DNA of 64,000 nt from Apostichopus japonicus (lineage: Eukaryota > Echinodermata > Holothuroidea > Aspidochirotida > Stichopodidae). Below, one piece after another: positions 18,701 to 52,971 of this stretch. The first letter of the stretch is position 1, and each line of letters starts with the position of its first letter. The position numbers and the translations under genes are program-made. Under the pieces are notes generated by a model, which was given only the letters and a program-made list of their open reading frames with translations, was not told the DNA's origin and searched no databases. The stretch lies in NCBI RefSeq assembly GCF_037975245.1, contig NC_092574.1, positions 5,634,713-5,698,712 on the forward strand. The letters run 5' to 3'.

Positions 18701-21700
18701 AAAGAAATGGGACAGTTTTATATCATTTCCAGTATTTATGAATATAAATTGATATTTAATTCCATCCTGAACATTTTCCCCATCATCATGAACGAATGCA
18801 TGTGATCACCACTACCCCTTCATAAGCTGCTTTTGCTGTTGCCATGAATGAAATAGAAATAGAAGTTTCCTACTCTCTGTACAAAACCACCCACACGAAA
18901 ATATTGTTACAATATCGTATTACTGTTTTGTTGCAATATTGTAAACAGTTCTTTGATGGAGTTTCATGCTTCTTCCTGCGTGGGTTAAGGTATATCTCAT
19001 GTCACAGATGGACATGGATATTCAAGCTGGATAAGATATACCTATATCCTGTAGTAATAACGTAATTTAAAAATAATTTACCTTACTTCCTTGTATAATG
19101 TTAGTAAAATATTTCAATCCAGTCGTCTGTACTAAAGATAAAACAAATGAAGCTGCCTGCTGCTATGTTGTTCTCTGACCATTTCTGTTTTCCATTGAGT
19201 GAATTAAATTAATGACACATTAACAAATTTATCAGGATTTCGTTGAGGGCTCCTCTGGAAAGCAGTGCTCTGCACTGAGCAGGACTACCCTCATTAAAGA
19301 TGACAATAATAAAAAATAATAAAAAAATTGGAACTATTGTGTGACTTTGACTATCATAACTGACCCTCGGACTACTTGTTACCGTTCAGGAACTATTTAA
19401 AGATTCAGTCACTTTCTTCTCTATCACACTTGCAGAAGTTGTCCCAATAATTGACAAATCAAAGCCTTTCATCCTTGTTTTTCATTGGCTGACATAGACA
19501 GTCATGTCAATTCCAGCTTACAGCGTTTTAAGTTCTGCTATTTTTTCTCTCGTTTGCCGTTCCACTCTTTCTCCTTCAGACTGCAAACAGAGCTGAAGGT
19601 CACAGTTGAGGGCCAGTTGGAGGCGATGGGTTGGAGTGGTGACATTAATTCTAGCAATGATCACCTCATTTCTCAGCTTCAAAAACAAGTATCAAGTCTG
19701 CAAGAGGTATGGACACTCCTAAGTGAGCTTTCAAATCCAATCAATGAATAAAAGATGTGAGAAAGTCGCCAATATTATTTTCTTCAAATGTCTGGCATAT
19801 ACATCATGTTAGCTTAAGGAGGCTTGCTTCAGTGAATTCCAGGTTAAGCTCCTTCCCTGTATACTTCTGTTGCCATCTTTCCACCTGCAATCTAGATAAC
19901 ATAAAAAGTTGGAATTTCTTACTTTGAGACGTACAAACCCTTATTACCCATAAACTTGAAAAGAAAACTGCTGACACTGTTGCACCCCCCACTCACCCTC
20001 TCCTGCCCCTTCCCAATATGTACCTATATGTGCTGTAACATGTGAACAAACCTGTGCCTCCCCTGCCCCTTCCCAATGTGTCCCTATATGTGCTGTAACA
20101 TGTGAACAAACCTGTGTGTAGTGCAAGAGTCTGGCACTTGGTGAATTTCATAGGTAAACATTGTTTTAATTGTACATCACAGTTTGTTTAGTAGAATGGA
20201 ATTAGGTTTTCAACTTTATAAGTATTACCAATAATGACCCCATTGTAACTCTCGGGGAGGTTTATCTGGCTGAAACAGACCATTTCACACTTGGTAGCAT
20301 CTGGAGAGTTTTTAAACGGGTTAAGCCCCTTTGGAAAGTTTTAGCAACATTAGCACCCAAAATTGTGGATGATAGGTGTATTGTCAAGATGGCCCCTTTA
20401 AAAGAGTAGGTTTATAAATATTCATCAGTCATCTTTGATTTGCATATTTTTCTATCCTCAGGAGAAAGAAGCTGCTCTTGATTTGTGGAGAACCTCATCT
20501 CAGCAATACGAAGACATAAACACAAAGTTCAGGGTAAATCTGCTGTTTGTATTTTGAAACAACCAGATAAATTAGCTGTCATTTGCATAATGAATATTCA
20601 TATGTTTCTTTTAAGTCCTCGTCTTGCTGATCTCATATTATGTCGGTCGAGTTGGCCGTGTGAGGAAGCTATTGATGACATAAAGCTGCATTCTATGCAA
20701 AATTTTCATGGTAGAATCAAAAGTGTCTTTAATATCTGCGAATAATTTTCAGTGATATTATTTGGGCAAATGTTTAATTTTACTGTGTTTAGCATTGTGT
20801 AGCACAGTGTTTGACTTTGGGATTTACTACTCACAGAATTTGGAAAGATGTCGTATCTGTCTTAGTCAAGAATTATGAAGAGTCTTCTCGCCAAGTTTCA
20901 GTTGTTGTTTTTATCGTGTCTTGCTGAAGATGAGGATTAATCCTTGGAAGGCACATTATGACAAAGCCAAACTGTGGAATTGGTTTGGAAACTTGATCAG
21001 ACTATCAGTTAGATCACCCTAATAGGGTAGGTTGGTGGAAAGAGGGACATAAGTTCTTTTCGCATCTGATAACAACAATGTCAGGTTTTCTATTTAATAC
21101 TAAACTATTAAAGACAAAGCGTTGAGTTGAGGTTAGGATGCAGTCATTTAGAGACTGTTGTCCTTCTCTCCTACATTTCTGCCTCGCATCCTTCTGAAAG
21201 GTAACATTCCTTTGACTCTTTGGCTGCCAGTATCTCAGCGGATTAGGTTCATATTCCTTCTTCTTGTGTTCAAGTGCCAGAACAACATGGCACCTCCATA
21301 CCTGGAAGATCTCATCCATCTTTATCAGTCAACAAGAGTCCTACGGTCTGCTGGTCAGAGTCGTCTGGAGGTGCCGATCACCAAGACAAACAGCTATGGG
21401 AACAGAGCATTTTGCGTGGCTGGGCCACGCCTCTGGGATGAGCTGCCGGCTGAACTCAGAACTGTTTCTAGTCTAACAACATTCAAGTTAAAGCTGAAAA
21501 CCTACCTATTTAGACCGCATTCCTGCAATATATAAACTGTTTATTCAACTCTATTCATGTGCAGTACTCAAAAACACTCAAGCCTGCATGCTTTTTATTC
21601 TTCATACTCATCTATATTGTATTTTATTCTGCAGTTTTACTACATTTTATGTGTCATATATTTTTTTACTGTTACGTAGCGTTTTAGAGCACTTTTGTGG

Positions 21701-24700
21701 ACTTTACGCTTTATAAAATAAATTATTATTTAAGGAAATTCGTTTGACTGAGCAAGCGGAGAAGTTATCACAGCAAGCACTAGAGGACAAGGCGGAGCAA
21801 CTCCTGAGGAAGAACGGTGAACTGATGACGACGAAACAAAAACTAGAGAGAGCTAACCAACACTTACAGGAAATCTATAATACCCACAGCAAGGAACTGG
21901 CAGACACCAGGGAACAGCTCAAGATTACCCGAACAGATAAACATACTGCTGAGGTGAAATTAGCAGAGATGGATCATGGGAAATCTCTACTGGAAGAAAA
22001 GCTTTATATGAAAGTATGTGGTTCTTCAGGCTCCATGTTATGTGTATGCAACTTAGCCAGAATCCAGGCTACTATATTAGGATTTTTTTTGTTTTTAATT
22101 GAAAATTTTTGTAACTATTTTTAGCCACAGTCAAGTTAATCTTCCCTTGTGTTATTTCTCAACTTTTCATTGTTATAACCATAGATCATATTCAAGGACG
22201 TTATAATTTTTTAGTATTCAATTATTTATGACGTTTCGTATATAATGTGTAAACTACAATAGTATAATCTGTAACTGTGACACATGGGATACTGCGAGAG
22301 TGTCAGGAAGAGGGAAATAGGGTTATCCTACTCTGTGTGTTTCCAGGTTCCTATTAATCAATTTCATTAAAAATCATTCCATTAGTTGATAAGATACTTT
22401 ATATCCCAGGAACCTAGGATTGCAATCAGTTTGGGTATAACTTTAATAGCAATTGTCAGAAAGAGGGGGTCGTAGGAGAAGAAGTTAGACTCGGAAAGTA
22501 TCGCAAAGAGGTTTATTAAAGGAGAAGTTGACCCATCATTTGGCTCATTCTTAATAGCGTCCGTTCCCTCGCTACCTGGTGTTCCATCATAGGTGCCAGG
22601 CAGAAGCATGCCATGTGATCTAACATTAAAATCAGTTTTAAAAAACAAGACATGAGTCGGAGTTCCAGAAGATGTGAAGCTCGTTTAAAAATCCTCTCGT
22701 ACTCATCGTGAGGTTTGATATTTCCTCTATTGCAGATTAAAGAGGCCGACACATTCAAACGTGATTCTGAATCGACCAGATCAGAGTTGAAGGAGGTAAG
22801 CCTCTCCTTGATAACATTGCAAGAAGAGATGGGACAGATTTCCAGCGAGAACGAAGCTCTGAGAGAGGCCAGGGTGGAACTAGAACAGAAAGTTAAGAGT
22901 CTCCATTGGAAATGGTAACAAATATTCATTATTTGAAATGTGTGTGTGGTTGCATTTTCGTAACTCCCATGTAACATTCCATGTTTACTGCCATGCCATT
23001 AAACTTCAGCATAGACTGAATTTGTTTATTGTTTTGCATTGCTGTTGGCACAGGATTACATTTAGTTTTGTTTATTTATTTATTTATTTATTTAGAGATA
23101 AAATTGTCACAGCTGTCATCAATTGTATTTGTATGTATTTTAGATCCTCCTGTAAGCAGGAACTCGCGAAGAAGCCATCATTGGCTTATCAAAGCCGCAA
23201 GCTGACCGAAGTCAGTCTCTTAGATTCATATTTAACGTCCATGATTATGAATTGTCAATTGTAAACAACTCTGTAACTGGACGACATACATTAATCTTGG
23301 AGTGTCTCGACCCGGGGTCTTTATGATTGGATGACACCGGCGTTAACCACTGAGCTAAAACTCCTACATTAATAGTTTGTTTACAAGGGGAAGCCTCATT
23401 GGCTTATGAAAGCCGCAAGCTGACCGAAGTCAGTCTCTTACATTCATATTTAACGTCCATGATTATGAATTGTCAATTGTAAACAACTCTGTAGCTGGAC
23501 GACATACATTAATCTTGGAGTGACTGGAACTGGGCACCTTATGATTGGAAGGCACCGCCGTTAACCACTGTGCTAACACTCCACACTCCTAAAAACACAC
23601 TCCTCAAATTCTTGTTTGCTTGCAGTGCCGAGGCTGATCGTCGAGAATTCGAAGCGGTGAACCAAGTACGCGAAAGCATTCAGATGGTGGAAAACTCTCT
23701 CTTGGAGAAAGATGAGGTTTGTAGATTTACTTACAATATTAGTTATGATTATTTATTTTGTGTACAATCACTGTGATGACAGCATACCTGGTTAGCTCTG
23801 TGTCAGACAAAATAACTTTGATGTAATATTAGTTCTGATTATTTTGTGTACAGTCACTGTTATGACAGTGTACCTGGTTAGCTCTGTGTCAGACAAGATC
23901 AATTTTATGTAATAGTAGTTATGAGTATTTTGTGTACAGTCACTGTAATGACAGCATACCTGGTTAGCTCTGTGTCAGACAAGATCAATTTGATGTAATA
24001 TTAGTTATGATTATTGTGTGTACAATCTCTGTGATGACAGCATACCTGGTTACCTTGGTGTCAGACAAGATAAATTTGATGTAACATTAGTTATGATTAT
24101 TTTGTGTACAGTCACTGTAATGACAGCAAATCTGGTTAGCTCTGTGTCAGACAAGATCAATTTTATGTAATATTAGTTATGATTATTTTGTGTACAATCA
24201 TTGTAATGACAGCATACCTGGTTAGCTCTGTGTCAGACAAGATCAATTTGATGTAATATTAGTTATGATTATTTTGTGTACAGTCACTGTTATGACAGCA
24301 TACCTGGTTAGCTCTGTGTCAGACAAGATAAATTTGATGTAATATTAGTTTAGATTATTTTGTGTACAGTCACTGTGATGACAGCATATCTGGTTAGCTC
24401 TGTGTCAGACAAGATAAACTTTGATGTAATATTAGTTTAGATTATTTTGTGTACAATCAATGTGATGACAGCGTACCTGGTTAGCTTGGTGTCAAACAAG
24501 ATCAATTTGATGTAATATTAGTTATGATTATTTATTTTGTGTACAATCACTGTGATGAAAGCATACCTGGTTAGCTCTGTGTCAGACAAGATAAATTTGA
24601 TGTAATATTGTTGTTAGTCAAAGGGTTATTCCGGTGACTGAAGACGACTGGTTGATAAAAATCAAGGAAATGATTTTGTGTTTCTTTATAATTTTTAACT

Positions 24701-27700: not shown

Positions 27701-30700
27701 CAGTAGATTTCTTATGCACTGGCATTTTTTAGCGAGTGACTGTAATTCTAGGCCTGATACCTTAAACCTCTATAACGCTTCACCAATACTCAGTAATAAA
27801 TATTGCTAATTTATATATGACTCTGAGTAGTACATCTCTATGCCTTACAGTTTACTGGTATTGGTCAGTTTATCTGATGTTTATTCATTGTATCTCTCCA
27901 ATGTTTGTCCGTTTGTATATACTACAATGATGATTTTTAACTATATTTTCACATCTCTCTGTTGTTTCTTACAAAGCTCTATAGAGAAGGGTCAGCTGAA
28001 ATGAGTGACCAGCGGGTCGGTCAGATGCAGGACCGACTCATATCGGCCGAGAGGCAGAAGGAGGAAGCTTTGATGAAGATGGAGAGCTTAGAGAAGGAGA
28101 TTAAGAGAAAAGAATTGAGGTAAGATGAGAAGAGACCATGATAAGCATTTTAGTTTACATATCTTTAAATTAAAATTTGTTCACAACTGCAAGTGTGCGT
28201 CGCTCAAAAAACGTATTGAAAATATGTGAGAACACCTTATTTCCTTTATTACCTTATCTCACATATTGGGCATGCCTTGTTTCTCACATATTGGGCATGC
28301 CTTGTTTCTCACATATTGGGCATGCCTTGTTTCTCACATACTGGGCATGCCATTTTTCTCACATATTGGGGCATGCCTTGTTTCTCACATTTTGGGCATG
28401 CCTTGTTTCTCACATATTGGGCATGCCATTTTTCTCACATATTGGGCATGCTTTGTTTCTCACATATTGGGCATGCCTTGTTTCTCACATACTGGGCATG
28501 CCATTTTTCTCACATATTGGGGCATGCCTTGTTTCTCACATATTGGGCATGCCATTTTTCTCACATATTGGGCATGCCTTGTTTCTCACATACTGGGCAT
28601 GCCTTGTTTCTCACATATTGGGCATGCCTTGTTTCTCACATATTGGGCATGCCATGTTTCTCACATACTGGGCATGCCATTTTTCTCACATATTGGGCAT
28701 GCCTTGTTTCTCACATATTGGGCATGCCTTGTTTCTCACATATTGGGCATGCCATGTTTCTCACATATTGGGCATGCCATGTTTCTCACATATTGGGCAT
28801 GCCTTGTTTCTCATGCCTTGTTCCTGAAATCAGTCTTGCCCATGGTATTCCATGTGAGTTGACTAGAGCGATATTAAAATTCCTTTCTTTTTTTCTTTAA
28901 ATGTTTTTCATTTATCAAGCCATAATGACAAACAAACTCAGCTGTCAAATAAATACCAGGAGATGAGGCAACGGACGGAGAGAGCAACCAAAGAGGCGGA
29001 GGGCCTAGCGGAGGAGAAACTGAGGTTGATTCAGGAGGTGGACCGTCTCAAAAAGAACCAGACTGCGGTCCAGAAAGAAAGAGATTCTTCGGAGAGAAAG
29101 TTTAATAAAGAAGTAAGATTTCTTGAATAGAACTAACTACTTTTCCAGGAAATGATAGTTGAATTTAATGGTTGGTAATTGTACTAGAAAATAAATATTT
29201 CAACAAAACTTAAGATTATGTCTTGGTTTTCCTGACAAGTGAGTTGCTTTTTCCTATTTCTCTGTCTCCTTTTTTTTTCACCCTGAGCTTATCATTTCTT
29301 GAGCAAAATTTGGTCTGTTACTTATCTTGAAGGTTCTGCCTTTTACATACATACACAAATAACAGTTTCTTTTAGCTTTCGGTAATTTGAAATCGTTAAA
29401 TCTTTATTCCACAATTGCCAGAAAATGACTTTGTTTTTCCATTTTAGTTATCAGCCGTCCAACAAGAAATCATGTTGCTAAAGGCAGAATACGAGGCTAA
29501 GGTTGACAGCGTGGAAGAGAGCAGTCGTCAGTCGAGTCGAGAACTCCGTCAGATGTTAGCAACACATCAAAAAATCAGTGCCAAGTAAGTCTCAAGAATA
29601 ATTCACTTTCATTAAAATAAAAAAATTTAAAAAAGGATCTTTTTCTGTGTTTTATAGTTTTTTAGCTCAACTAGTTGAGCTATTGTCATGGCAATGCGTC
29701 TGGCCGTCAACAATTGCTCAAAGGCCTGCTGTTTGCAGGTTCTTTGATGAATCCTCATCAAACTTTGTCAGTTTGTAGCAGATATCAAGATCTTGAGTAA
29801 AATGGAGACAGGTTGTAGGTCAAAGGTCATTTGGGGTCAAGAGAGGTCAAAAAGTGAAATCACAAAAAAGCCTACTCCTCCTAGTGTTAATGTTGGATTT
29901 TCATGAAAGTCATCCATAGTGTCCAGTATATGATAGGTCATAATAGTTGTACTTTACTTACATGTCAAAGATCATTTGGGGTCACAAGGGGTCAAAATGT
30001 AAAATTCATTCAGGAGCCTATGGGTTTTGTTTAATGTTTTTGACTATGTGCAACATAGTTCTTGAAGGGCGCCAACATCTGTGCTTGCATCAGTTTGGGT
30101 TGCCAGGAAAATGAAAAATATAAGTTAAGTACAAATGGAAAAAACCTTTATAATGGACAGAGAATACTGTGAATATTAAAGATATGAACAAGAAAGTGTC
30201 AAGGATTGTATTTAAACATCGTTTTATGTAAAGAAATCAGTAAATGCTTTTGCAGAGCCTTGAGAGATTTATTTACCAAAATGTGAAAAATCTTGTTTCG
30301 TTCGTTGACAATGCTTGACAAGCACGGCAGTGTGGCCACAAATCCATTAGCGATTTCTCGAAAAGTAATCACGAAGTTTCCCGGAATCCTGATTTTATTT
30401 CCTGAAATAAAGATTGCCTGATTGATAAGGTACACTACAAGAAAAAATTATTTCCCGAAACGTTTCCTTAAATCGTTCCAATTTCCTGAAGTTTACCATT
30501 TTAGTAGTTGAGCTACAATGTCATTGACATTCAAGTTTTTAAAGTTTTATATCGAATTGACAGTATTCATATATCATTTGTAGGAATCACCTTTCGTTTG
30601 ACACCACTAATTCTAATATTTAGTCTCTTTGAACATTAAACCTTCCCACCCTGGCCCTCTGTCTGTCTCCCTTGTTTCAAGCAGCTTTTCCGGGTACGGT

Positions 30701-44800: not shown

Positions 44801-47800
44801 TTGAGCGATAAACTTAAACTAGCCTGCTTTTATTTTAATTACCCTCCAACAGTGATATCCTCATTAAGGATCTATGTGTAACCATGGAGGCCTGTTTTAC
44901 CTCCGTGGTGTATTACCAATCGACTGCAGAGTTGATGAAATTAAGCGGTGTTTGATTTGCTGTAAGGGTTAATTATTAAACAGGGCTTGAGGTCTCTTGC
45001 GATCTTTTATGTGCAGAGTAACAAATCTCTCCTCTCTTTTTGAAAACTAAATCGCTTTATTTGCGAAGCTTTCAGTTTCATGATCATGATTAATCTCCTG
45101 GATCTATCAGTCAGTCTCTCCTCAGACTGTTTCAGATTGAGAGGTGGATGGTGCTAAGAACTCATTATTACTTTTGACACTTAAGACATCTGAGATCACT
45201 CAAAAGATTCAACTGTTTTAATATTCAGCGGAGTATATAAATCAGTTTATTTATACAGAGTTTACTCAAGGCATTTTGCCATTGTGTACTTGTACTAGAC
45301 AGTTGAACTAAAACGTATCAATCTTTTAAAAAATAAGCTACATGATTTTGTTGTTGTGGACAGGAACAGGCTTATCCTCATCTGTTCTCATTTCCTTTCC
45401 CCTTAAACAGGAACAGCTGGTCTCCTTTATCTATGTACCAGCTCCCTTTTCAAACAGATTAACAATGTTAAAGCAAGGAGTCATAGAACAGTATAAAAAT
45501 GAGGAAGATACACTAGAATTTAATTTTGTTATTTTTTTAAAGCTTGTTATCATCCCTATTTCCTTCTTCTTTTTCATTTGTTTTGATGTTTGCTTTATTT
45601 TATTTTATATGGCATGTTAAAGCATGTAGTGTATGCATTATCTTAATATAAGAGTAAAATCAGTCTAAGCGTCCACACGTTCTCCATGCTGAATCGCCTG
45701 TATTATAATAAGGCACAATATGTGATAATTTAGGATTTATCAGTATATAATACGTTTCATGGTTTGCAACCTCTTGTCACCCATATTTATCACATATTGA
45801 TCTTGTCAAGCTTTTAACTTTGCTTTCCTAAGAAGGTATAAAACGATATATTTGGCTGCAAGATATTATACCAAATCAGCCCTGGTTGTACCATACAACA
45901 GTAACAAGTTACAACAAATATTAAGGTAAAATCGTTTGAGTACTGCTAGCTACTATAAAGCACTGTGCCGACAATACAACTTCTTCCCCTCAACCAAGGA
46001 AACCTAAGAAGCACCTCTACAATCCAAGCAGGAAGCCTGGTTTGTTAAGTGGAACGGTACACATGAAGAAATCCCACCTCAAAATCTTCCTATCTTATCT
46101 TCTGTAGAGTACACACATATCCCCCATCTTCCCTTTCCTCTGTCCCTCTCCCCACCCCCCCCCCCTTCCTTCTTCCCTTCCTCTTCCTCTTCCCTGTAGT
46201 TTTTAAGACTCATGTATTTCAGGACAAAGTTTTAAGTAATTTTTTTCTGGTTGTCCCTTGGACAACTAGGTCTTACTTCTTAGTTTTGGAAACAGCAAAC
46301 AAAGAATGACCAATATGTACACTGTAGGAGAGATATGTGTAGGTTTGGTGAATAGAACACCAATATGTACACTGTAGCAGAGATGTTTAGGTTTGGTCAG
46401 TAGAACACCAATATGTACACTGTAGGAGAGATGTGTAGGTTTAATGAATAGAACACCAATATGTACGCTGTAGGAGAGATGTGTAGGTTTGGTGAATAGA
46501 ACACCAATATGTACACTGTAGGAGAGATGTGTAGGTTTGGTGAATAGAACACCAATATGTACCCTGTAGGAGAGATGTGTAGGTTTGGTGAATAGAACAC
46601 CAATATGTACACTGTAGGAGAGATGTGTAGGTTTGGTCACCAATACAGTAGCGCTTTGGGCCAGTCGAAACCCCCTTCAGGTCGATCATAAACCTACCAC
46701 TATCTTCAAAGGGATGGAGGGTGATACCATTTTATCAATTTGACCTATTTGCGGTACTACTTACAGAAATTTGCACGTCATGCACCACTTGATCGAAGAA
46801 GGTCTGCATCCTGTGTTTTTAAAGTGTACTGCGCTAAATTTATAGACGTTCAGAAAACAAAACTTGAACGCATAGGTCTTCATTGTCTAGACAGGATGTA
46901 TGATATCTATTACTGACTGAAGCATTTTAAACTCTGCATGGTAGCAATTCTGGTGAATTTCAAGCTATTTATATCATTAGCAATTAATCTATGAAAGGTT
47001 GATGATGAGAGGCTAGCTGCATTTTAACCAGATTTAAGATATAAGAAAAAAACATTGATGTTCACAAATTAGACCATTCTAGGAGCTCATGGTCAGTTAT
47101 ACATGGCCCTTGCCATGGTAGGGAAGGGCAGGGGAACTGCCATGTCCCCACCCCCTCTCTCCAATAATATTCATAGCAATGTCCTTAATGTGGAAAAGAT
47201 TACACCATAGCTGTCACTTTTGACACCACTGAATATTGGCCTCACCCATTCCCCCCCCCCCCCCCTTACTGGAACATCAAACGTGTTTTAGAGTCCCTAG
47301 TTCTCTATAGATTTATTAACCATAAAGTATTCTGTCCTGGAACACTGATTGGATAATTTTATTTAGAAGGCATGGGCCAGGATAGGCAAAAGGGAGAGGA
47401 GAATGGCCCTCTCATAGACACTGAAGGCAGTGAAGGGACAGTATAATGGCCCTCTCATAGGCTGAAGGGTACAGTAGAATGTCCCTCTCACAGACTAAAG
47501 GGACAGGACAATGGTCCTCTCATAGACTAAAGGGACAGTAGAATGGCCCTCTCATAGACTAAAGGGACAGTAGAATGGCCCTCTCATAGACTGAAGGGAC
47601 AGTAGAATGGCCCTCTCATAGACTAAAGGGACAGTAGAATGGCCCTCACATAGACTGAAGGGACAGTAGAATGGCCCCCTCATAGACTAAAGGGACAGTA
47701 GAATGGCCCTCTCATAGACTAAAGGGACAGTAGAATGGCCCTCACATAGACTGAAGGGACAGTATAATAGCCCTCTCATAGACTAAAGGGACAGTAGAAT

Positions 47801-50800
47801 GGCCCTCTCATAGACTAAAGGGACAGTAGAATGGCCCTCTCATAGACTGAAGGGACAGTAGAATGGCCCTCACATAGACTAAAAGGGACAGTAGAATGGC
47901 CCTCACATAGACTGAAGGGACAGTATAATGGCCCTCTCATAGACTGAAGGGACAGTAGAATGGCCCTCTCACAGACTGAAGGGACAGTAGAATGGCCCTC
48001 TCATAGACTAAAGGGACAGTAGAATGGCCCTCTCATAGGCTGAAGGGACAGTAGAATGGCCCTCTCATAGACAGAAGGGACAGTAGAATGGCCCTCTCAC
48101 AGACTGAAGGGGACAATAGAATGGCCCTCTCATAGGCTGAAGGGACAGTAGAATGGCTTTCTCATAGACTAAAGGGACAGTAGAATGGCCCTCACATAGA
48201 CTGAAGGGACAGTATAATGGCCCTCTCATACACTGAAGGGACAGTATAATGGCCCTCTCATACTGTAGACTGAAGGGACAGTAGAATGGTCCTTTCATAC
48301 ACTGAAGGACAGTATAATGGCCCTCTCACAGACTAAAGGACAAAATGTACCTTAGCCATACTGCACTCTAAGTATAAACATAAAAGCCTTAAACTGTTTA
48401 TTGCTCCTCTTTGGTATGCATCTTTCATTTCTCCCTCTCCCTTTCTCCTCTTCTAATTCCCTCTCCTCATGAACCCCTCTCCAACCCCCTCCTCAATCGC
48501 AAGGGAAAGGCTACACCCATAGTTGCATATATATGTGTGGGGTCCTTTTGACAGCCTTTTCACCAGATATTGAGTGAGGCCACTATAGGGCATTATTTGT
48601 ATTAGTGAGGTACAATCACTGCATTTGTAAATTGCATTGTACAATGCACTCCACTGATGGAATTTATCACTTGTTTTCTTTCCATGGTAACAACTTACCT
48701 CGCCATAGGAACTCATAAAGAAAGGGTTTGTGAAAAAGATGAAGTTTTGTTGAACTTTGTATAAAATTGCTTCTGCGGTATTTATTGGAATCTAATCAGG
48801 GCAATGCACACAGACACACAGATTCACACAGTTGCTATAACCTTGACTGGCAGCTTAAGGGATTCTCATTCAATGCATATCGAATCGCTGTTTAGATTTT
48901 AACCAGCTCTATTCCAGTTCAAAATCAAATGAACACTTTATATCAATATTTATGAAGAGGTGAAACTTGTAGATCTGAGGTCAGCCAAACCGCTGGAGTT
49001 GTGAGAAATTTTGAGAAATTTACTTTATTCGGAAATTAGCCTCAGGCTTCTGGGTTTTTCAAACGAAGAAGGCCATATTCAATGACAGATGGCAAAGAAT
49101 CCCGAGTACCGTGGTGTGGAGTTACTCGCTTCTCTTACGCACGTACGTCGGTTAAATCCGCAATCCTGCATGGAGTATATAGTTCTTGATTCCTTCCTGA
49201 AGGTAAGTGAAAATAGGACAAATTAGATCTAATCTCAAGCGATAATTTGTATTAAGCCTCTAAACAATTAGTCTTATCCTGTCGTACAGATCAGTTCATT
49301 CCAATAATCTTTATGCAGAAGTTGTTACACTTATGTCACACAGTTTCTACCATTCAGTTACATTCGGTTCTGTAATGTTCTGTTGCATTCAGTCAACAGT
49401 TTTGTAGGTTTTAAGGTAAGCTATGAATCTAGGCATAAGTTTTGTGCCCTATAGTCCCATTACGATACAACTCCTTAACAAAACAAAAATGCTCCAATTT
49501 TACCTCAAAATTTTTGAGAAATTATTTTTGTTCTTGAATATATATTGAATCTAGAGATTAAATCTCCTTTGGCTCCAACTTTGCATATAATTAAAAACAC
49601 AAATACAAGTCTATAAAGAAATAAGTTGAATAAATACCATAAAAATATTAAAGTGCTGTTATCATGATAAAAAACATGCTCAAGAGCACTGTACAAAAGA
49701 ACCAATACCTGGAATATAAAATTACCAAACTTTAGAAACCTAAAAGTAATAACAACAGCAATAAAAGTTAAAAATGATATAAGACAGGGTTATAAACCAC
49801 AATAAAGAACATAAAAATATAAATATACATAAAAATGGGCACAGTAATTGTGAATAAAACAACGAATAAGATTAATGCCCATACTCAAGCCTAAAAAGAT
49901 AAGTTTTGAAATGCTTCTTAAAAGTGTCAATAGATGTGATATTTCTCAAGTGATGAGAAATATGTAAAATTGAATGAAATTGGTGTTAAAATTACTCCTT
50001 TACTTATAGTCCAAAAGGTGTTTTATAAGTATATGGATTATTTTAATGAAATAAATCTTGGTTTCGAGAAACTAATTGCCCTACTGATGCTCAAATAGTA
50101 TGAAATGGCAAATATCACCATTCCGTTTTCCTTTCATGTGGTCTATAAGCGGTAGTAACCATTCTCTTTAGAGCTAACAATAGTATGTAAATTACTTCTC
50201 TCAGTGGCGTAGGAAGGTACTTTTGAGTGGGGGGGCTGAAGACTGATGGCCGGCCTGGGGGAGGGGTCTAAGGGGAGGGGGTGTCCCCCTCCCCTTTGGA
50301 ATTTTTTGCATTTCCAGGTAGCCTCAGATGCAATTTGGTGCAATATAGCACACTTCAACACCCACTCCATTTTGTAAACTTAATTTTGTATTTTCACCAG
50401 GCCTTAGATGCAATTTGGTGCTCCAAATGAGATTTTTTTTCTCATTTGGAAATGAAAAAGGGGTTCTCTGACTTGCGAAGCGGGGGGGCGGAATGATACT
50501 TCCGCCCCTCCACATTTTTCACTGGGGGGCTGGCGCCCCCCAGCCCCCCCGGTTCCTACGCCCTTGACTTCTCTCTAATTAGTTGAGTTTGGTATCATGC
50601 TAGTTATCATTCCAATTATGGTCTACAAGTTTCAATTTTACATATTGCCACACATACATCTTATCATATTACGCTTGGTTTCTTACCATGGGGTCCTTAA
50701 TCTTTCTATATTATGCTTGGTTTTATTCCTGTTAGCTCATACACATACATCTTTCTGTATTATGCTTGGTTTCTTACCATGGGGTCCTAAATCTTTATAT

Positions 50801-52141: not shown

Positions 52142-52544
52142 GTAAAACTGACATTTTCATCCCTTTCCTCTTCTTCACATATATTGCATTTATGCTTACA
52201 AAATTAATGTGAAGCTTTTCACAGGTAAATTGAAACATGACATTCTTTCAAATATTCTCTTAATTCAGTAATTATTCTTGGTAAGTATCTCTAACTATTT
52301 CTCAGTGACCTGATTTCTATGACACAGTTCAATTCTATCCAGATCTTATTCCTAAGAGGCTTTAACCATCTCAAGATTACGATTTGAAAGAGGTTTATAG
52401 CGATCAAGGGATTCAAGGCACAAAAGTCCTGGTTATACTTATGTCATACCTTACATTTGTGCATAAAAGACTTCAAAATAAGATTGAATCTATAAGGTTC
52501 TGCCATCCATTAAGATCTTTTTACATCATTGATTAAGTTAACAG

Positions 52545-52747
52545 ATCGCTTCTCGGCCTTTTGGCTAAGATCATGTGTAGTATCTGTTCCCTTTCGAGGG
52601 GAATGAATGGTGATGCACACCTGACGATCGATGATCACACAGTCACAGTCCCGATGCAAGGGGACTGGGGTTGAGAGCGGATCAGTCGTTCGGTAGTTTG
52701 GTTTTCGTGCCCAGGTTCTTTCCTGGGTGACTTTTCTTAAAAGGTAC
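52545..52747 (+). mobile_element. U2 snRNA-headed structured retroelement (SINEU-like), with 11-bp target-site duplication
   Basis: Positions 52545-52589 match the 5' end of U2 snRNA with a single mismatch, from ATCGCTTCTCGGCC through the branch-point recognition GTAGTA to ATCTGTTC. After that the sequence leaves the U2 consensus but stays structured: hairpins at 52587-52603 (TTCCCTT/GAGGGGAA arms), 52646-52667 (CAGTCCC/GGGACTG) and 52710-52727 (CCCAGG/CCTGGG). The body is bracketed by TAAGTTAACAG at 52534-52544 and 52748-52758, an exact 11-bp direct repeat typical of LINE-mediated insertion. There is no poly(A) and no recognised RNA polymerase III box. SINEs with snRNA-derived heads are described in crocodilians; a one-off template-switch pseudogene is the alternative. 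Confidence 0.82.
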
Positions 52748-52971
52748 TAAGTTAACAGATCCTACTACACTAGTATTGAAACATTTTGTACTTGTTTGCA
52801 CATGTGTGGTAAATGCATATGTGTACTTGTATAGTCAGTCATATTATATGGAAGTCAGTACAGGATCAAGTAATGTTGTTAGGCTCTATTAGGTTCCATC
52901 TTGAATGAAAAATTGTTTTAATTTTGCTTCAAATTATGTTATCAGTAATGTTCGACACACACATCATGCAG

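Follow-up and report, generated by a model that had tools for sequence, protein, structure and literature searches.

A U2 snRNA-headed SINE family in the sea cucumber Apostichopus japonicus with copies inside U2 snRNA genes

Results

The stretch of DNA analysed here, called the window in the following, covers 64 kb of contig C14 (C14:5634713-5698712) of Apostichopus japonicus and was searched against the genome of this species (671,581,487 bp, 35 contigs). At positions 52545-52747 of its forward strand lies an element that consists of 45 nt of U2 snRNA followed by an unrelated structured body, flanked by target-site duplications (TSDs). The head (52545-52589) represents U2 nt 1-45. In a preliminary description based on the letters of the window 44 of these 45 positions had been counted as matches, and against the host's own U2 genes the agreement is complete (45/45). 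The Rfam U2 consensus differs from the head by a mismatch at position 30 and at one lower-case, less conserved position; the U2 genes of the host share these letters with the head, the T at position 30 among them, which accounts for the full identity. Rfam detects U2 at 52545-52625 (53.1 bits, gathering threshold 46, E 1.1e-07) as the only match at gathering threshold within the 64-kb window. A known RNA as the source of the body was rejected, since a permissive Rfam search gave only sub-threshold matches besides U2, the best within the body being sR28 with 18.9 bits against a threshold of 39. ARAGORN identified no tRNA gene in the window. Read from the sequence, the head contains TTTT at U2 nt 15-18.

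The body of about 150 nt (52590-52745) has a close relative located directly after U2 nt 45 in U2 genes of an array on contig C16, which is described below. It begins within a junction hairpin GTTCCCTTTCGAGGGGAATG (52586-52605), the most variable part between subfamilies, followed by the predicted hairpins CAGTCCC-loop-GGGGACTG (52646-52667) and CCCAGG-TTCTTT-CCTGGG (52710-52727) and by a small 3' terminal hairpin with the conserved end CTTTTCTTAAAAGGT (52731-52745), for which the family form is CTTTTTCTTAAAAAGT, then A; all these features are on the forward strand. The hairpins noted earlier are thus recovered as predictions, with a modest excess stability of the window copy (z -1.97, 8 of 200 shuffles being as good). 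Two 4-nt duplications in this copy are absent from most of the seven other copies compared, and a U-rich stretch that may resemble an Sm site can be seen in its letters. The exact direct repeat TAAGTTAACAGATC of 14 bp is present at 52534-52547 and 52748-52761, and with one mismatch it extends to 16 bp, giving a left TSD copy at 52532-52547 and a right one at 52746-52761, both longer than the 11 bp originally assigned. As the last three TSD letters (ATC) are also the start of U2, the 5' boundary of this copy is ambiguous by 3 nt. Elsewhere in the window, minisatellites with units of 25, 32 and 86 bp are located at 28257-28813, 47431-48339 and 23735-24609, respectively, and an ORF at 21152-21535 looks by eye like the C-terminus of a non-LTR reverse transcriptase; two window ORFs including this one had no Pfam match at E <= 0.01.

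Whether the element is one member of a SINE family in an invertebrate or a single template-switch pseudogene had been left to a genome-wide search for the junction and the body. Using the head/body junction as query (51 nt, up to 3 mismatches) we obtained 615 genomic matches (308 + 307), and the 36-nt tail gave 1,788 (919 + 869), with 0 matches for the reversed-pattern controls of both queries. A single occurrence is thereby ruled out, and together with the copy-specific TSDs these numbers support a U2-headed SINE family in an invertebrate. An abundant LINE with the same tail did not show up among the loci inspected: 20 loci, chosen among 100 of the 1,788 tail matches listed and mostly absent from the head list, were all SINE copies, 18 with U2-derived sequence and 2 truncated within the body, with no other head in any of them. 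The 83 copies analysed in detail show a median divergence of 3.1% from the consensus, in a set that is biased to young copies as most of them were picked by an exact junction match. A TSD score of at least 8 was found for 52 of the 83 copies but only for 3 of 245 shuffled pairings, the null set having lost 20 rows (10 without a tail, 2 without an end, 7 duplicates and 1 at an edge); the remaining 31 copies score below 8, and the median TSD length is 15 bp among the 44 copies with a score of at least 9. The element is therefore a real SINE, being short, non-coding and present in many dispersed copies with individual TSDs and a head from a cellular RNA gene. The annotation of a published A. japonicus assembly assigns no more than 159,644 bp, or 0.02% of the genome, to SINEs (PMC10344927), so that the present family was perhaps not classified as a SINE in that work.

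Exactly AAAAGT forms the end of 53 of the 83 copies. The next base is A in 49 of these 53, the second position is T in 28 (p 0.0018) and the third C in 27 (p 3.8e-07). Compared with the U2 site, the off-target sites match on average 3.3 of 8 positions against 2.1 at control offsets, a weak resemblance to which the first A may contribute as a base of the element itself.

Several loci show the SINE in unusual arrangements. A further junction class with U2-like letters up to nt 49-50 has 50 matches (up to 1 mismatch, control 0), of which 12 form six inverted pairs 2-3.4 kb apart on C2, C3 (two), C7, C16 and C19. In the locus L158 (C19:27864800-27867760) the SINE copies are part of long inverted repeats of 801 nt with 100% complementarity. 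Judging from the six pairs, the SINE may have been captured by another element that has long inverted repeats, and these 12 copies probably owe their number to the multiplication of that element. The junction classes at nt 45, 49 and 50 may go back to separate U2 insertions or to substitutions. At C3:3634700-3635990 (L146) a partial U2 head and the body make up a satellite-like tandem array of about 171 bp, and at C2:21947300-21948500 (L145) repeated insertions took place at one spot, with AAAAAGTATCCTAT joining the units, as if the SINE end recreates its target. A region of 6.3 Mb (C17:18.2-24.6 Mb, about 1% of the genome) harbours 20 among the first 100 listed of 123 matches to the junction type found in U2 genes. 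A cluster on C5 was rejected as a master locus, as the sequences upstream of its copies differ, a duplication of 680 bp accounts for part of the cluster and no match to the U2 upstream flank was obtained there. Direct head-to-tail fusions were not taken as evidence for template jumps, with just 3 matches at up to 2 mismatches.

On C16 the U2 genes of A. japonicus are arranged in tandem with a unit of 645 bp, and the SINE body is found inside genes of this array. A junction of the SINE end with U2 exists in seven places genome-wide, of which six belong to the array and the seventh is on C20. All six array residents, named here by the start of their U2 gene, have a single common 3' junction at about U2 nt 38/39, which can be placed only within nt 35-39 owing to the likeness of the SINE end (AAGTA) to U2. 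The residents 31059492, 31132509 and 31133952 are of full length and join U2 at nt 45, with one extra difference at U2 nt 43 in 31059492. Resident 31134735 is truncated and keeps U2 to nt 53. In 31021932, where U2 is kept to nt 40, a truncated body and a full one stand in tandem. The sixth, with its junction at 31006752, is truncated and located directly downstream of a LINE insertion. The different 5' joins (nt 40 or 53 against nt 45) at one 3' site indicate several insertions. For the five residents with a U2 5' half the upstream flanks hardly differ from the flank of an intact U2 gene (identity in 451/452, 452/452, 452/452, 452/452 and 406/408 columns, 99.5-100%). In contrast, the C20 case is a diverged U2 gene, its 3' part having mismatches and a single gap in an alignment of 155 U2 positions and its upstream flank being unconserved (233/505 columns). 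The SINE in this gene is, like the window copy, a member of the abundant CCCTTTCGAGGGG subfamily; the six residents of the array are all of other types, leaving the diverged C20 copy as the only representative of this subfamily in U2 genes. A sample of loci covering part of the array provides 43 U2 5' halves. Of these, 28 continue without interruption through nt 73, and the other 15 carry interrupting inserts, which are SINEs in 5 cases and other inserts in 10.

Seven of these ten non-SINE interruptions match the LINEs L151, L152 or L153. We translated L151 and L152 and found open ORFs, with zinc knuckles (zf-CCHC) in their ORF1s and with ORF2s of 1,157 and 1,153 aa, respectively, that contain Exo_endo_phos, an APE endonuclease domain, and RVT_1. 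Such LINEs occupy the same U2 site as the SINE residents: downstream of them U2 resumes at nt 36-39, with an ambiguity of a few nt where the LINE and U2 letters coincide, and their 5' junctions are at U2 nt 45 and 50, that of the SINE being at nt 45. L151 and L152 are thus Keno-like by endonuclease and site. The other three inserts (31033848, 31039807 and 31131066 in the C16 array) interrupt U2 after nt 50, share one common start that has no match to L151 or L152, and possibly represent a further LINE type. Only a weak likeness was seen between the 3' ends of the SINE and of the Keno-like LINEs (nine uncorrected tests, p 0.022-0.335), and a BLAST search of the body against the local Keno-like LINEs gave nothing beyond 14-nt matches, so that the body was rejected as a piece of these LINEs. 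We therefore infer the partner LINE from the shared site and junctions.

The dispersed copy at L145 on C2 is identical to resident 31133952 over 187 of 187 nt, and the resident-type junction has 123 exact matches, including three within the array. In the dispersed copies U2 nt 1-45 are combined with a constant 3' end and with TSDs that differ from copy to copy. A search for the upstream flank of U2 gave no match (E <= 1e-3) in 122 non-array loci (172,638 bases), with at least 65 upstream bases covered for each of the 83 copies. Body copies inside U2 genes at the Keno/Utopia site explain the U2 head, which is the front half of the gene that the SINE invades. Thus, A. japonicus has a SINE family that resides in U2 genes. 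The window element is a dispersed and probably dead copy of a SINE for which U2 snRNA genes with an inserted body are the likely source, and the promoter of the SINE is most likely that of the host U2 gene. To our knowledge, both the origin of snRNA-headed SINEs and their transcription without an internal promoter are unsettled. Here one assembly contains both the candidate parents, in the form of SINE-bearing U2 genes whose promoter flank is intact, and the offspring, hundreds of dispersed U2-headed copies, which makes these questions directly testable.

Where the U2 5' end is complete, a G precedes the first U2 nucleotide in 17 of 33 copies (one near-duplicate dropped), against 8 of 49 copies without the full end (Fisher p 0.0012). 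Copying of a capped RNA would be expected to leave such a G. The base at -1 is clear of a resolved TSD in only 5 copies, 4 of which have G, and part of the signal could come from microhomology. The chimera of U2 and resident body folds far better than the window copy (z -4.49, with 0 of 200 shuffles as good). In its predicted fold U2 stem-loop I is kept and the U2 branch-site segment pairs with the body; this segment is also predicted to pair with the body in the consensus of the main dispersed subfamily, whose predicted fold lacks stem-loop I.

Discussion

We consider it likely that the SINE is a non-autonomous parasite of U2 genes. Its RNA would come from the U2 promoter and be copied by a machinery of the Keno type, with the dispersed copies as dead ends. 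The U2 promoter of a SINE-bearing gene would produce a capped RNA beginning with U2 nt 1-45 joined to the body; it would start at U2 +1 and end with ...AAAAAGUA or read through into U2 nt 39-192. A Keno-type LINE protein might recognize the 3' end of the SINE and start target-primed reverse transcription from a nick. At a U2 gene the U2 head of the cDNA probably pairs with the 5' half of U2 already present in the target and gives a seamless join, so that a new promoter-bearing source gene would arise. Inserted elsewhere, the same RNA would yield a U2-headed copy that has no promoter and leads no further, as proposed for the window element. This life cycle, with the U2 promoter, the Keno machine, a homology-guided 5' join and dead dispersed copies, is to our mind the best-supported reading of the sequences.

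The head might also have been acquired only once, by a template switch from LINE or SINE RNA to U2 RNA, after which a few dispersed masters would have spread an ordinary U2-headed SINE and the copies in U2 genes would be incidental. Crocodilian SINEU with their U1/U2 heads would be in keeping with this. R2 elements with U12 snRNA or tRNA 5' ends also suggest template jumps onto small RNAs (PMC3414825). However, a single 3' site at about U2 nt 38/39 is common to the body copies in the array, the upstream flanks of the residents equal those of an intact U2 gene, a dispersed copy (L145) equals resident 31133952 and the U2 upstream flank is absent beside the 122 non-array loci, and we regard this origin as improbable. 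Even less credible is a transfer of dispersed SINE copies into U2 genes by gene conversion or recombination through the shared 45-nt head. It would account for the seamless join of the full-length residents at U2 nt 45, but on the 3' side U2 restarts at about nt 39 and repeats nt 39-45 at the site reported for Keno/Utopia (PMC4640811), and truncated residents without the U2/body junction have the same 3' site, both being typical of target-primed insertion.

As for the enzyme, mobilisation by a LINE other than Keno, of the Utopia type or from a dispersed family, is rather unlikely but the most plausible of the alternatives considered. The weak 3' similarity of the SINE to the Keno-like LINEs observed and the three LINE-like starts in the array that match neither L151 nor L152 speak in its favour. 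Nevertheless, L151, L152 or L153 account for 7 of the 10 non-SINE interruptions, and the nt 45 junction is common to LINE and SINE inserts, the LINEs using nt 50 as well. Utopia itself was rejected as partner, since L151 and L152 encode an APE and not its restriction-like endonuclease.

Returning to the parasite of U2 genes copied by a Keno-type machine, we lean slightly towards a further step in which the target gene provides both promoter and head. The SINE would then persist only in U2 genes by seamless homology-arm joins, the dispersed copies would be promoterless by-products and head and body would be mutually adapted, as suggested by the branch-site segment, which is predicted to pair with the body both in the resident form and in the main subfamily of dispersed copies. 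If true, this could be a general route to snRNA-headed SINEs.

The nearest known kind of element is the snRNA-headed SINE, represented by SINEU. These crocodilian elements were reportedly described by Kojima in 2015 with U1 or U2 snRNA heads and are said to be linked to Tx1-Mar LINEs and Mariner targets. That work is listed among the references of PMC7245038. Both families combine an snRNA-derived 5' head with an unrelated body, and the U2 head found here falls into the U1/U2 range of SINEU; in contrast to SINEU, which by description is tied to Tx1-Mar LINEs and Mariner targets, copies resident in U2 genes are seen here. As far as the open-access literature examined shows, no U2-gene-resident SINE has been reported, and to that extent the U2-resident copies are what is new in this work. 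Among LINEs, Keno is an APE-type U2-targeting element and Utopia a U2-targeting one with a restriction-like endonuclease; downstream U2 is reported to begin at nt 39 for Utopia, and the 3' flanks of Keno are identical (PMC4640811). The SINE residents use the same U2 insertion region as these two, but the SINE is short, non-coding and also present outside U2 genes in hundreds of copies. The array LINEs L151 and L152 share the APE type and the reverse transcriptase with Keno, together with the resumption of U2 at nt 36-39, and differ from Utopia by the APE domain in both ORF2s. Another parallel is found in the SIDEs of R2, short non-autonomous elements in 28S genes (PMC3414825). Like them, the SINE is a short parasite of a multicopy RNA gene that would use the machinery of a site-specific LINE. 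Whereas SIDEs combine the LINE's own 5' ribozyme and 3' end, the SINE body has no detectable homology to the local LINEs, and its dispersed copies retain the 5' end of the target gene itself as their head.
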